Assembly (NCBI GenBank): GCA_903918375.1
Contig: CAIXED010000082.1
Span: 1-34,199 of the forward strand
Origin: an uncultured Pseudomonadota bacterium
Lineage (GTDB): Bacteria > Pseudomonadota > Gammaproteobacteria > Methylococcales > Methylomonadaceae
Direction of reading: 5' to 3'
Length of the DNA: 34,199 bases
The notes under the pieces are model-generated. The model did not search any database and had not been told where the DNA came from. It was given only the letters and a program-made list of their open reading frames with translations. Each line of letters starts with the position of its first letter. The stretch's first letter is position 1. The position numbers and the translations under genes are program-made. Positions 8,344 to 14,224 of this stretch are shown piece by piece.

Positions 8344-8817
8344 ATGACTGAGCACCTGCATCACGACCACAGCCAATGCATTCACACTGCCTTGGCGGCG
8401 GCTGAACAACTCTGTAAAGAACGCGGCGCATTGTTAACCCCAATCCGCCGCAAGACTTTGGAATTGATTTGGAATAGTCACAAAGCGATTAAAGCCTACG
8501 ATTTATTAGATCAACTGCGGCCAATTAACGACGCGGCCAAGCCATCAACGGTTTATCGGGCTTTGGATTTTCTGTTGGAACAAGGGCTGATTCATCGGGT
8601 TGAAAGCTTAAATGCTTTTGTTGGCTGCCATTGTTCAGGGATTCAACACGATCAATTGCTGTTGATTTGCACTGTCTGTCATAACATTGAAGAACGCGAA
8701 GCTAGTCCGGTTTTAGCGGCCTTGGCAACTGAATTACAGCAAGCGGGCTTCATTCCCCAGCGCAAAACCATCGAAATTCACGGTTTATGCCAAAATTGTA
8801 GTGATAAAAGCGCATAA
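8344..8817 (+). CDS. zur: Fur-family zinc regulator, Zur-like
   Basis: 157 residues of the Fur family. The winged helix includes LTPIRRKTLELI and STVYRALDFLLEQGLIHRVE. The dimerisation part carries two Cys-x2-Cys pairs (Cys109/Cys112 and Cys149/Cys152), a structural zinc site typical of Zur. The N-terminus is histidine-rich (HLHHDHSQCIH). Zur represses zinc uptake genes when zinc is sufficient. The overall pattern (FVGCHCSGIQHDQLLLIC) resembles gammaproteobacterial Zur rather than Fur or PerR, but metal specificity is inferred. The ATG directly abuts the purK stop (TAAATG), so expression is probably coupled to purEK, an unusual partner; no zinc transporter genes are nearby. Confidence 0.85.
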   Translation: MTEHLHHDHSQCIHTALAAAEQLCKERGALLTPIRRKTLELIWNSHKAIKAYDLLDQLRPINDAAKPSTVYRALDFLLEQGLIHRVESLNAFVGCHCSGIQHDQLLLICTVCHNIEEREASPVLAALATELQQAGFIPQRKTIEIHGLCQNCSDKSA

Positions 8818-8829
8818 ACTGACTATTTG

Positions 8830-8870
8830 TTGATCCACATCAAGATAGATTTGCCGTTCATCACTAGAAT
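8830..8870 (+). promoter_or_regulatory. Class II FNR-dependent promoter
   Basis: A perfect FNR/ANR box, TTGAT-CCAC-ATCAA, occupies 8830-8843. A good -10 hexamer, TAGAAT (5 of 6 to consensus), occupies 8865-8870. With +1 at about 8877 the box centre sits at about -41, the position where FNR replaces a -35 at class II promoters; no -35 hexamer is present. It begins only 12 bp after the zur stop. It is predicted to fire under low oxygen. Confidence 0.75.
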
Positions 8871-8876
8871 GAACCC

Positions 8877-8971
8877 ATGTCAGACGCTTTCCACCTCCTG
8901 TCTTTGGCATAATCCTCTTGAAAGATAGATAGACACTCTAAGGCGACCCGCTTTCTAGGTCGCCTTTTTTT
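8877..8971 (+). ncRNA. Predicted FNR-activated small RNA, about 95 nt
   Basis: The interval runs from the predicted start of the FNR promoter to a strong intrinsic terminator and has no plausible open reading frame or ribosome site leading into one. CCACCTCC (8891-8898), the complement of a Shine-Dalgarno core, lies in the 14-nt loop of a weak hairpin closed by AGAC (8882-8885) and GTCT (8900-8903). A second pyrimidine-rich stretch, ATCCTCTT, can be presented by a TCTTT/AAAGA stem (8901-8905 and 8920-8924). Exposed CCUCC-type loops are typical of regulatory RNAs that block ribosome sites. The layout parallels E. coli FnrS in logic, but I see no sequence similarity to it. Not a proven gene; a short leader with attenuation before the ligase gene is the main alternative. 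Confidence 0.6.
8940..8971 (+). terminator. Rho-independent terminator
   Basis: A 9-bp GC-rich stem, AAGGCGACC (8940-8948) with GGTCGCCTT (8958-8966), a 9-nt loop, then a T run to 8971. It separates the preceding transcription unit from the ligase gene. Confidence 0.88.
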
Positions 8972-9037
8972 GTTTGCTGATAAGTTGCTTGCAATGAAGG
9001 TTATAATCTCGACCTAAAGCAACAAACCTCCCCTGTT

Positions 9038-10993
9038 ATGCTCACCGACAATCAACTTTTACTGATCCAGCAAGCTGGGTTGGATTTTAATACGCTGGAT
9101 CAAACTAGGTTTTTAGCATTAAGCCAAAATCCTCATGATTTAACTGCCTGTTCGGATCAAGCATTAATCGCCTTTTTACAACTGGCTAATGCTTTATATC
9201 GTGGCGGTGAGCCACTTATTAGCGATGCTGATTACGATCATGTTTTTCTGGCCGAATTGAAACGCCGTTTACCCGACCATCCCTTGCTTGAAAGTGTCGA
9301 ACCTGAACCTCAATTCGCTGGAAAAACCGTTGATTTGCCAGTCATCATGCTGTCTACCGACAAAGCCTATAGCCGTGATGATGTTGAACGCTGGGCAGCA
9401 CGGATTGAAAAAGCGGCGGCGGAATTAGACATCAATTTTGCTGAACTAGAATTTAAAGTCAGCCCGAAATTAGATGGCTATGCCGCTTATGACGATGGCC
9501 AAAGCCTTTATACTCGTGGCGATGGTCGTAAAGGTCAGGACATTAGCCGAGTATTCGAGCGTGGTTTACAAGTCGCAAACCAAGGCGCGCGCGGTTTGGG
9601 CGCGGGTGAAATCGTCGTTATCCGCAGTTATTTTGCCGAACATTTAGCCGACTTCTTCGATAACTCACGCAATTTCCAAGCTAGCGTCATCAAAGAAAAA
9701 CAATTAGATCAACACGCCGAACAAGCGATTGCTGATGGCGCAGCGGTGTTTTATCCATTTGCTTTATTACCGGCTTGGACAGGGGTTTGGGCAGAGTTGA
9801 TTGCTGATTTCGACAACATCATTAAAGATATCTGGCATAAGCTGGATGTTGATGTTGACGGGGTGATTTTAGAAATTACCAACGACACCTTGAAACAAGC
9901 GATGGGCGCGACTCGTCATCATCACCGCTGGCAATTGGCTTATAAAGAAAATATACACACCGCTGAAGTCAAAATACTAAGAATAACGCCACAAACATCT
10001 CGCGCAGGTCGGATAACGCCTGTTGTCGAATTTGATCCAGTGCGTTTAAGCGGGGCTTCGTTGACCAGAGCCACCGCCCATCATTACAAAATGGTGTTAG
10101 AAAAAGGCATCGGCCCCGGCGCAGTAATTCAATTGGCGCGTTCCGGTGAGGTGATTCCAAAAATTGAGCAAGTGCTTGTCGCAGTAGAGCCGCAAATTCC
10201 TGAGCATTGCCCTAGCTGCGGGCACGATTTGATTTGGGATAATGATTATCTGATTTGTCCGAATAATTTGGCCTGCCCTGCCCAAATCAGCAATAGCATG
10301 GAGCACTTTTTCAGAGTGTTAAAAAACAATGATGGCTTTGGCGCGGCAACGATTAAAAAGCTCTATGAATTTGGTATTCGTCGGGTTGATGCGATTTATC
10401 AGCTGAATTTAGAACAATTTGAAAGCATGGGTTTTGGCCCTAAACAATCGCAAAATTTGCTCGATCAATTGCAACGCAGTCGCGGTGAAGCGATTGAAGA
10501 TTGGCGGTTTTTGGCAGCGTTTGGGGTGTTTAGAATGGGGCTGGGTAACTGCGAGCGCTTGCTAAGTCATTACCGATTGGATGAAATTTTTAATCTCACT
10601 GAAAACGAGATTGTCGCGATTGAAGGCTTTGCCGAGAAAACCGCTTCGGTGATTACTGAAGGTTTTGCCAACATTAAGCCGCTGTACGAACAATTAATCG
10701 CGCTGGGTTTTAATCTACAAAACACCCAACAGCAAGCCAGCGAAACCGATCATCCTTTAGCGGGAAAAACGCTGGTATTTACCGGCACTTTGCACAGCGG
10801 TTCACGCGATGAACTCAGCAAACAAGCTAAAGCCAAAGGCGCTAAAGTTGGCAGCTCGGTTTCAGCGAAAACTAATTATTTAGTGGCTGGCGATAATGTC
10901 GGCGCTAATAAAATCAATGCCGCTCAAGACAAAGGTGTGACGGTGATTAGCGAAGCTGAGTTTTTACAATTACTGAATGGAGCGGCGGCATGA
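9038..10993 (+). CDS. ligA: Divergent NAD-dependent DNA ligase (LigA family)
   Basis: 651 residues with every LigA domain in order: Ia domain (LISDADYDHVF near 60-70), adenylation domain with the nucleotidyl lysine in KLDG (Lys144) and TRGDGRKGQD, Glu191 (motif III), RWQLAYK (motif V, Lys303), OB fold (SRAGRITPVVEFDPV), a four-cysteine zinc finger (Cys391, 394, 407, 413), helix-hairpin-helix repeats and a C-terminal BRCT domain (LAGKTLVFTGTL). It seals nicks using NAD+. Two features are odd. Motif IV reads DGVILE, so the lysine corresponding to E. coli Lys290 is Glu279, and the Tyr-His pair of the Ia domain is not evident. It may be a second, specialised ligase rather than the replicative one. 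A TATAAT at 9002-9007 is the likely -10; no Shine-Dalgarno precedes the ATG. It overlaps thiD by 4 bp. Confidence 0.85.
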   Translation: MLTDNQLLLIQQAGLDFNTLDQTRFLALSQNPHDLTACSDQALIAFLQLANALYRGGEPLISDADYDHVFLAELKRRLPDHPLLESVEPEPQFAGKTVDLPVIMLSTDKAYSRDDVERWAARIEKAAAELDINFAELEFKVSPKLDGYAAYDDGQSLYTRGDGRKGQDISRVFERGLQVANQGARGLGAGEIVVIRSYFAEHLADFFDNSRNFQASVIKEKQLDQHAEQAIADGAAVFYPFALLPAWTGVWAELIADFDNIIKDIWHKLDVDVDGVILEITNDTLKQAMGATRHHHRWQLAYKENIHTAEVKILRITPQTSRAGRITPVVEFDPVRLSGASLTRATAHHYKMVLEKGIGPGAVIQLARSGEVIPKIEQVLVAVEPQIPEHCPSCGHDLIWDNDYLICPNNLACPAQISNSMEHFFRVLKNNDGFGAATIKKLYEFGIRRVDAIYQLNLEQFESMGFGPKQSQNLLDQLQRSRGEAIEDWRFLAAFGVFRMGLGNCERLLSHYRLDEIFNLTENEIVAIEGFAEKTASVITEGFANIKPLYEQLIALGFNLQNTQQQASETDHPLAGKTLVFTGTLHSGSRDELSKQAKAKGAKVGSSVSAKTNYLVAGDNVGANKINAAQDKGVTVISEAEFLQLLNGAAA

Positions 10994-12380: not shown

Positions 12381-12457
12381 CCAGCGTTCGCCCTAGCTAG
12401 TCTGAAATTGTTACAATGCACCACTTTCGTTCGACCGCCCAATTGACAAAATCCAGC

Positions 12458-13483
12458 ATGAATACAGAGCAACAAGTCACCCTCACCCAATTTATTATCG
12501 AGCAACAACGCCGTTTGCCGGATGCTTCCGGTGCATTTACCTTATTGCTGAATAACATTGCGACTGCTTGTAAACAGATTTCTCATCGGGTTAATCGTGG
12601 CGCTTTGATTGGCGTGTTAGGCAGTGCCGAGTCTGAAAACGTCCAAGGCGAAGTGCAGAAAAAGTTAGACATCATCACCCACGATATTATGGTCAATGCT
12701 TTAAATTGGGGTGGGCAACTAGCTGGGATGGCGTCAGAGGAAGTCGATGAGCCTATCGATATTCCTAGCCAATATGCTTTAGGTAATTATTTGGTGTTAT
12801 TTGATCCTTTAGACGGCTCATCAAATATCGATATTAATCTGACTGTCGGTAGTATTTTTTCTATCCTGCGTTATCCAAAAACCGTAGCGCCAGAAACTGA
12901 AGATTATTTACGACCAGGCCACGAACAAGTCTGTGCGGGTTTTGTTTTATATGGCCCATCCACTTTACTAATTTTAACCACAGGTGATGGCGTCAATGGT
13001 TTTACATTAGACCCCGATATTGGTGAATTTATATTAACTCATCGCAATATTCGCATCCCAGAAAAATATAATGAATTTGCGATTAATATGTCTAACCAAC
13101 GCTTTTGGGAGCCACCGGTTAAACGTTATGTTGATGAATGTGTGCAAGGTAGTGAAGGCCCTCGCGGTGAATATTTTAATATGCGCTGGATTGCCTCATT
13201 GGTGGCTGAGGTTTATCGAATTTTGACCCGTGGCGGTGTATTTTTATATCCTTACGATTATAAAGACCCATCAAAACCTGGCAGATTACGTTTAATGTAT
13301 GAAGCCAATCCAATGGCATTTATTGTTGAACAAGCCGGCGGTGCTTGTTCAACTGGTCGTGAAAGAATTTTAGATATAAAACCCAGCAGTATTCACCAAC
13401 GTGTACCCTTAGTATTAGGTGATAAAAACGAAGTCGAGCGGATTGTCGACTATCACCACCAATATGATCAAACTCAAGCTTAA
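12458..13483 (+). CDS. fbp: Class I fructose-1,6-bisphosphatase
   Basis: 341 residues. It hydrolyses fructose-1,6-bisphosphate to fructose-6-phosphate in gluconeogenesis, and also in the regeneration phase of carbon-fixing or formaldehyde-fixing cycles. Class I motifs are [20 protein letters not shown] with metal-binding acids, [32 protein letters not shown] and [17 protein letters not shown] with [13 protein letters not shown] 12458 (Met-Asn-Thr-Glu-Gln) matches the family start; an in-frame ATG at 12416 would add an atypical leader, and neither has a strong ribosome site. A TACAAT at 12412-12417 may be the -10. It lies 24 bp before fnr on the same strand. Confidence 0.93.
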
Positions 13484-13507: not shown

Positions 13508-14224
13508 GTGCCGAAATTAAATCAAGTAAGTTGTAATAACTGCGGTTTAGACAATATTTGTCTGCCTCGCGGTTTATCGCATGAAGAAATTGAAAGTATT
13601 AGTCAAATTATTAAAGCCAAAAAAACCTTGCAGCGTGGCGAGTTTATTTACCATGAAGGCGATAATTTTCGTGGCATTTTGGCGATTAAATCCGGCAGCG
13701 CCAAATTAGTCGGTGCCGACCAACATGGCAATGAACATATTTTAAATATTTTATTACCTGGGGAATTATTAGGTTTTGATGGTTTATCGACTGATAAACA
13801 CAGCTGTGCGGCAATTGCTTTAGAAACCACCAGTTTTTGTCTGCTGCCTGCAGATAGCATGGATCATTTATTCCAAAATATCCCAAGCTTAACTCGTGAG
13901 TTATTTCGTCATTCCGGCGAAAAAATGCTAGAAGATAAGAATCAATTGATACTCAGCAAACGCCCAGCTGAAGAGCGTTTGGCTTATTTTCTGATTAGTT
14001 TATCTGAACGCTTAAAACGCCGTGGATTCTCGGCATCAGAGTTTAAATTATCATTAAGTCGGCAGGAAATTGGTAATCATCTTGGTTTAGCGCTAGAAAC
14101 CGTCAGTCGCTTATTAAAGAAATTCCAAGAAGATGAAATGATTATGGTGCAGAATCGTTTTATAACTATTACTAATATATCAGCTTTAAAAAAACTACTA
14201 CAAGTCAACGAATCAGACCTTTAG
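13508..14224 (+). CDS. fnr: FNR/ANR-type oxygen-sensing transcription regulator
   Basis: 238 residues of the CRP/FNR superfamily. The N-terminus carries the [4Fe-4S] ligand set Cys9, Cys12, Cys18 (SCNNCGLDNICLP), with the fourth ligand at Cys111 in TTSFCLLP, equivalent to E. coli Cys122. The cyclic-nucleotide-like beta barrel follows, then a helix-turn-helix (LSRQEIGNHLGLALETVSRLL) whose E-xx-SR recognition triad is that of proteins reading TTGAT-N4-ATCAA. Oxygen would dissolve the cluster and inactivate it. The start is GTG 13508, behind AAAGGA; it gives a shorter N-terminus than E. coli FNR. A perfect target box lies at 8830 in this window. Its stop codon overlaps that of the convergent ABC permease (TTAG). 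Confidence 0.94.
   Translation: MPKLNQVSCNNCGLDNICLPRGLSHEEIESISQIIKAKKTLQRGEFIYHEGDNFRGILAIKSGSAKLVGADQHGNEHILNILLPGELLGFDGLSTDKHSCAAIALETTSFCLLPADSMDHLFQNIPSLTRELFRHSGEKMLEDKNQLILSKRPAEERLAYFLISLSERLKRRGFSASEFKLSLSRQEIGNHLGLALETVSRLLKKFQEDEMIMVQNRFITITNISALKKLLQVNESDL

Follow-up and report, generated by a model that had tools for sequence, protein, structure and literature searches.

The interval from 8830 to 8971 of the stretch of DNA analysed here (34,199 nucleotides, hereafter the window) probably encodes an FNR-activated, trans-acting small RNA that, judged from sequence comparison, would pair with the Shine-Dalgarno regions of pmoC and fae and shut off synthesis of methane-oxidation enzymes when oxygen is absent. 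We also favour, with some caution, a broader reading in which an oxygen-responsive sRNA of Methylomonas silences pmoCAB and fae together at the level of translation, evolved independently of FnrS and has had the pmoC leader adapt to it; this would make it the first riboregulator of methane oxidation. Particulate methane monooxygenase is one of the main biological checks on methane emissions, and Methylomonas inhabits the zone in which oxygen meets methane; to our knowledge, little is known of how these bacteria adjust methane oxidation on loss of oxygen. Since the prediction specifies a sensor, an RNA, a pairing of 13 bp and two targets, it is directly testable.

An earlier note on this DNA had described an FNR box without mismatches, a -10 element placed as in a class II promoter and a predicted transcript of about 95 nt ending in a terminator, and the sequence of 8830-8971 contains all of these. 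Reading on the forward (+) strand, as for the RNA parts, the neighbouring genes and fnr described below, the box TTGATCCACATCAA (8830-8843) is followed by a -10 element, TAGAAT, at 8865-8870. The predicted RNA of ~95 nt (8877-8971), delimited by the box/-10 spacing and by the 3' terminator, would start at about 8875-8878, placing the box centre at -40.5 if +1 is 8877 and at -41.5 if it is 8878. Sequence and fold both indicate an intrinsic terminator at 8940-8971, with a 9-bp stem, a 9-nt loop and a T7 run: the hairpin AAGGCGACC-(9 nt)-GGTCGCCTT occupies 8940-8966, and seven T follow to 8971. A promoter scanner reported no sigma-70 site with a -35 element here, as is expected at a class II site, and a terminator scanner did not report the 8940-8971 terminator because it allowed loops of at most 8. 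An RNA model matches the window at 8875-8972, the window itself being among the sequences from which the model was built. Taken alone against shuffles the box is mildly unusual: TTGATN4ATCAA occurs once in the window where 0.08 copies are expected, and 8 of 100 shuffles hold at least one copy.

It is conservation that lifts the observation above chance. A pattern of box, 45-75 bases and then CCTCTTNNAAGA has exactly one match in 36 of 37 genomes of the genus, a count whose independence, like that of all cross-genome counts here, is limited by kinship among the genomes; the sole genome without it is an assembly 83% complete. A reversed control pattern matched none of the 37 and 2 of 311 genomes of the order. 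Outside the genus the box-plus-core pattern was found in 2 of 274 genomes, both belonging to one genus (g23), and a direct DNA search recovered the element in 34 of the 37 genus genomes. In all 35 loci measured the box fits TTGAYN4RTCAA (the pattern search used TTGAN6TCAA), and the distance from the start of the box to a CCATGTC-type stem is either 45 bases (20 loci) or 46 (15 loci), so that a class II start falls in the first bases of the stem. TAnnnT-like hexamers are found at the -10 position in relatives, read by eye in the loci listed with their spacing. An FNR-type promoter and sRNA anatomy are conserved as a unit across Methylomonas, which supports this part of the earlier reading.

We take the 37-genome set to be Methylomonas on the names among 22 stretches that matched the box-plus-core pattern in a scan of a named collection. 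Fourteen of these are Methylomonas (M. koyamae, M. methanica, M. lenta, M. fluvii, LW13 and others), and five are uncultured proteobacteria or Methylococcales-type genomes that agree with the loci of the genus search; the remaining three (Marinamargulisbacteria, Actinomycetes, Romboutsia) may be chance. Methylomonas sp. LW13 therefore carries the RNA (locus L108). Four g23 loci (L056-L059) hold FNR-box RNAs with a similar CCUCUUU-type core; in three of them (L057-L059) the upstream coding sequence does not look, by eye, like the end of zur, and these may be moved copies or look-alikes. Of the weak matches of the RNA model in genus g22 and others (E ~1e-3 and above), the five loci read (L060-L064) were set aside, no FNR box being visible in them by eye. 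A plasmid search gave no match.

By fold and alignment, the RNA begins with a 5' hairpin and ends with the terminator, and the linker between them is mostly unpaired. In the 5' hairpin (8877-8910), AUGUCAGA pairs with UUUGGCAU, and in relatives the form is CCAUGUC..GACAUGG; CAUGUCA..UGACAUG is present in many genomes, and compensating forms GUCG..CGAC and GUUA..UAAC also occur. Across 26 distinct sequences 90.8% of the cells of the 5' stem are paired (13-45% in slid controls), and three of its eight pairs have changed on both sides. A stem shuffle control separates these values moderately from chance, 20 of 500 shuffles reaching the paired share, 56 of 500 the three pairs and 5 of 500 the covariation score. 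On a first alignment, in which the terminator stems did not line up with one another, RNAalifold returned six pairs of the 5' stem only and missed the terminator; relatives keep terminators though the stem sequences differ. Fold z-scores are -2.1 for the window and -3.6 to -5.5 in four relatives.

The predicted fold of the window RNA shows, besides the terminator, CCACCUCC inside the loop of the 5' hairpin (8891-8898), and the anti-Shine-Dalgarno sequence CCACCTCC in this loop had been given prominence in the earlier note. Among the 36 genomes with the element, however, just three closely related ones (G000, G009, G025) have the CCACCTCC loop, and most of the others have a UUUCCUACC-like loop. 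As a probe in the target scan described below, the CCACCUCC loop ranks pmoC 13 and fae 949, and the genus loop ranks pmoC 160 of 1,684; we have rejected the loop as the main seed and regard it as auxiliary at most. A second pyrimidine-rich stretch, which the earlier note had mentioned in passing, is instead the likely active part. It corresponds to the conserved, unpaired seed AUCCUCUUGAAAGAUAG (8912-8928), which lies in the linker, the most constant part of the RNA: UCCUCUUGAAAGA is present in 30 of 30 aligned sequences and the whole 17-mer in 26 of 30.

Candidate targets were ranked over about 1.9 Mb of the 2.786-Mb source genome, of which the window is contig C82, with 200-base overlaps counted twice. 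Home-made gene calls gave 1,704 genes, of which 1,684 starts were used and 20 dropped for short or ambiguous context. The first probe scored, a 24-mer that spans the linker, ranked fae at the top (-22.7) with pmoC next; the conserved 17-mer inside it, scored afterwards, ranked pmoC at the top (-17.3 kcal/mol) with fae next (-16.3). When opening energies were included, the 17-mer gave pmoC rank 1 and fae rank 3. Of 14 probes of 17 bases stepped along the RNA, the one at the linker (offset 36) is alone in ranking both genes among the first three; the next probe gives fae rank 1 and pmoC rank 44. The pmoC pairing joins CCUCUUGAAAGAU (8914-8926) to AUCUUUUAGGAGG in 13 contiguous base pairs, two of them G-U, across the Shine-Dalgarno sequence. 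Pfam confirms pmoC, pmoA and Fae (AmoC, AMO and Fae), and pmoC is followed by pmoA- and pmoB-like genes. The sdh operon, suggested in the earlier note as a target, is not favoured by the linker: sdhB ranks 50, sdhD 86 and both sdhA and sdhC 525 of 1,684 with the 17-mer, and the four rank 386, 341, 522 and 401 with opening energies; pmoC and fae stand at 1 and 2, or 1 and 3, in the same two rankings. Probing with the loop of the window RNA puts the sdh starts at 88 to 636. xoxF ranks 8 to 10 by duplex energy and 112 with opening energies.

Shuffled linkers serve as a control on this ranking. When 2,000 shuffles were made that keep UCCUCUU, 35 reached the pmoC energy and 15 the fae energy, but none reached both. 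In 25 such shuffles scored genome-wide, fae remained in the top four in eight and pmoC in the top five in one; part of the signal is therefore plain anti-Shine-Dalgarno pairing. Nor is the total of strong duplexes in the scan clearly above that of shuffled linkers (14 vs 7.2, sd 4.5, at -16 or below; 32 vs 29.3 at -14 or below), and in the absence of a convincing enrichment the case rests on which genes rank highly and on the comparison among genera.

For that comparison pmoC leaders were read in 32 of the 37 genus genomes (30 loci plus G006 and G038), leaving out three with no match (G009, G040, G042) and two at contig edges (G025, G043), and fae leaders in 30 of the 37, the best copy of each gene being used; 30 chosen genomes outside the genus gave 29 pmoC leaders (none found in G047) and 29 fae leaders (no close copy in G051). 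All 32 Methylomonas pmoC leaders contain AATCTTTTAGGAGG, and in a gapless alignment of the 24 distinct ones the final 19 positions show no variation, while among the 41 positions ahead of them just one is invariant. Among the 29 pmoC leaders from 25 other genera of the family, AATCTTTTAGGAGG occurs in two (G085 and G124), both from g23, and these two genomes carry a similar FNR-box RNA with the core CUCCUCUUUGAAAGAUA or CUCCUCUUUGAAGAUA. A genome of another genus (G069) with a PmoC equally close to that of the window (92%) has neither an RNA match nor this form of the leader. The picture within g23 is less tidy. Three of its genomes (G107, G137, G059) lack AATC, and two of these (G107, G137) have more diverged RNA-like elements whose duplexes with their own pmoC reach -15.2 and -12.1, respectively; the linker of G107 pairs more strongly with some other leaders than with its own, and there is thus no clean co-variation in g23. 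Moreover, the TTTTTAGGAGGTAGAA portion of this leader is widespread among genera that lack the RNA, and most of them share its general AGGAGGTAGAA part, so that the genus-specific match is short (AATC plus one extra base). For fae, median duplex energies are -14.0 in 30 Methylomonas leaders and -10.3 in 29 others, but the distributions overlap: the weakest inside the genus is -12.7 and the strongest outside -15.8, and in two genomes outside it that gave no RNA match (G065 and G061) the fae duplexes equal those of the genus in strength.

The same evidence bears on an alternative that we consider unlikely, though still worth weighing: that this is an FNR-activated sRNA whose chief targets are other mRNAs, or many mRNAs at once by general anti-Shine-Dalgarno pairing, with pmoC and fae standing out through strong, accessible ribosome sites. 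The 17-mer does contain CCUCUU, complementary to Shine-Dalgarno sequences; hit numbers are not clearly enriched over shuffles, and fae often stays high in shuffles that keep UCCUCUU. TCAAGAGG is found at other starts (a YgiT-like gene in L243 and a secreted-protein gene in L221), and TTCAAGAGG precedes further genes in relatives. However, the pmoC complementarity extends 7 nt past the Shine-Dalgarno sequence, the two energies are not jointly reached in any of the 2,000 shuffles that preserve that sequence, and the extra bases are found, among the leaders read, only in the RNA-bearing genus and in the two genomes with a similar RNA.

Searching the 37 genomes for TTCAAGAGG before an ATG gave, among the matches listed, many candidates and no uniform set among those read; by inferred name they include a conserved 434-residue protein, a secreted protein of ~487 residues, nifH in two genomes and an MsrP-like protein. 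Some individual starts may be recorded here for their own sake. The nifH-like genes in L131 and L145 have TTCAAGAGGAG at the ribosome site, and nitrogen fixation could be a further target. A YgiT-type zinc-finger gene near 6301 in L243 has TTTCAAGAGG there, a perfect match to part of the linker, and a YgiT-type relative in G012 (L152) has TTCAAGAGG. A CopC-domain gene has CAAGAGG at its ribosome site in the window genome (L205 near 8229) and TTCAAGAGG in G002 (L120). A cytochrome P460-like gene (PF16694; L195 near 12340) ranks ninth of 1,684 with opening energies.

It is very improbable that the conserved unit is a terminator and leader serving zur or ligA without action in trans. The neighbours speak for it: a Fur-family regulator (PF01475; Zur-like, the name being inferred) lies upstream at 8344-8817 and an NAD-dependent DNA ligase (Pfam) downstream at 9038-10993, and loose motifs recognise the Fur-family/Zur-like C-terminus in 27 of 35 loci, the ligase in 23 of 35, and a zur-like end, a ligA-like start or both in 31 of 35. 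Against this, the element has a conserved promoter box of its own, its terminator ends ahead of the region in which ligA starts, that region carries a TATAAT-like sequence itself, and the most conserved part is unpaired and lies inside the RNA.

The earlier statement that the product has no reading frame needs correcting, as a short ATG frame (MSDAFHLLSLA, 8877-8912) lies inside the RNA; on comparison of the loci it is probably not coding. A related sense micro-frame, MSxAFLP(L/S)T, recurs from the 5' end of the RNA in the window and its relatives, and is probably a by-product of the conservation of stem and loop. Coding is unlikely because the length from stem to core departs from the common 33 by a non-multiple of three in 9 of 35 loci; in at least one of these (L002) the length change sits behind the stop of the frame. 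An antisense frame behind AAGAGGA was rejected, being broken or altered in several loci. Hence, although related frames occur in many of the 35 loci, we give hardly any credence to the idea that the RNA is a very short messenger, or a messenger and sRNA in one, for a 9-11 residue peptide (MSxAFLP[L/S]T) read from a 5'-terminal AUG, since in nine loci the stem-to-core length departs from the common one by a non-multiple of three, neither a leader nor a ribosome site would fit, the bases that are conserved come after stem and loop, and several frames end early or run on.

The reading we prefer, an FNR-made sRNA acting on pmoC and fae, has its putative regulator at hand. The FNR oxygen sensor gene fnr (13508-14224) lies 4.5 kb from the RNA in the same window; it was assigned from relatives of solved structure, the best being the FNR-type regulators 9qll and 5cvr (E 2.1e-51), and from an alignment in which Cys 9, 12, 18 and 111 match cysteines of solved FNR, which we take to hold the oxygen-sensing cluster. 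It is located just downstream of a fructose-1,6-bisphosphatase-like gene (12416-13483, named from sequence only). Hfq is encoded in the genome (PF17209 at C71:50972-51157). When oxygen is gone, FNR in its iron-sulphur form would bind the box and activate the class II promoter, and the ~95-nt RNA would fold to leave the linker exposed between the 5' hairpin and the terminator. Probably helped by Hfq, AUCCUCUUGAAAGAUAG would then pair over the Shine-Dalgarno sequences of fae and of pmoC, the first gene of pmoCAB; ribosome binding would be blocked, and no new methane monooxygenase or formaldehyde-handling enzyme would be made when the oxidant is absent. What the sequences show directly are these parts and their conservation, the fnr gene, and the complementarity with its spread among genera; transcription and its dependence on FNR, the help of Hfq, pairing in the cell and repression are inferred.

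Pairing over the Shine-Dalgarno sequence normally blocks translation, as is established for many sRNAs, and methane monooxygenase needs oxygen, so that a repressor made under FNR would be sensible. According to the accessible part of a study of Methylomonas sp. LW13, a low-oxygen zone had 1.26 log2 less pmoCAB mRNA and 1.02 less xoxF mRNA than a better-oxygenated one, pmoCAB were still the most expressed genes at low oxygen, and small RNAs had been removed from the samples (PMC11072679). In Methylomonas sp. DH-1, according to the accessible part of another report, a synthetic sRNA on a RyhB scaffold cut carotenoid output by 40% (PMC7720504), and sRNA-type repression thus seems workable in the genus. 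Both results agree with the prediction, and neither tests it.

The suggestion that the RNA is probably undescribed stands. Rfam gave no match at gathering score in the window, the FnrS family included; between 8700 and 9100, with E values up to 5, only sRNA71 and isrD appeared, both far below gathering; and in 12 relatives' loci no sRNA family was matched, and the two hits there, one to a group II intron and one to a tRNA, lie away from the element. Literature on Methylomonas and methanotroph sRNAs, FNR and pmoCAB yielded no description of it, within a search that largely covered papers outside subscription. The proposal of a functional analogue of FnrS is likewise supported; the best reading is of a non-homologous counterpart that would work like FnrS but is not FnrS by the Rfam model tested.

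The targets of FnrS are aerobic functions. In E. coli its FNR class II site is at -41.5 and its induction is anaerobic and FNR-dependent, and the accessible part of the same source reports no homolog seen outside Enterobacteriaceae (PMC3032703). The RNA described here resembles FnrS in its FNR class II site and in that it would also lower aerobic functions; it differs in having no Rfam match and in its predicted targets, which are methane oxidation genes. Another parallel is the fnrS of Neisseria gonorrhoeae, called AniS in meningococcus, an anaerobic equivalent in another lineage that we liken by description and not by sequence. It is presented, in the accessible part of the source, as an FNR-induced sRNA with a predicted class II FNR site, -10 element and terminator, its targets being open at that time (PMC3032703). 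NrrF of Neisseria meningitidis, as far as the accessible text goes, is a metabolic sRNA on respiratory genes such as sdhCDAB (PMC5586341), but it is under Fur and not FNR, and sdh is no leading candidate here. The sRNAs EcpR1 and alpha-r45 of Methylosinus sporium 5 are also from a methanotroph and are described as conserved among alphaproteobacteria; the accessible part of that report gives no link to FNR or pmo (PMC12403871). What we rate as new in the present case is that an sRNA of the FNR type occurs in a further lineage and that its predicted target pathway is a new one.
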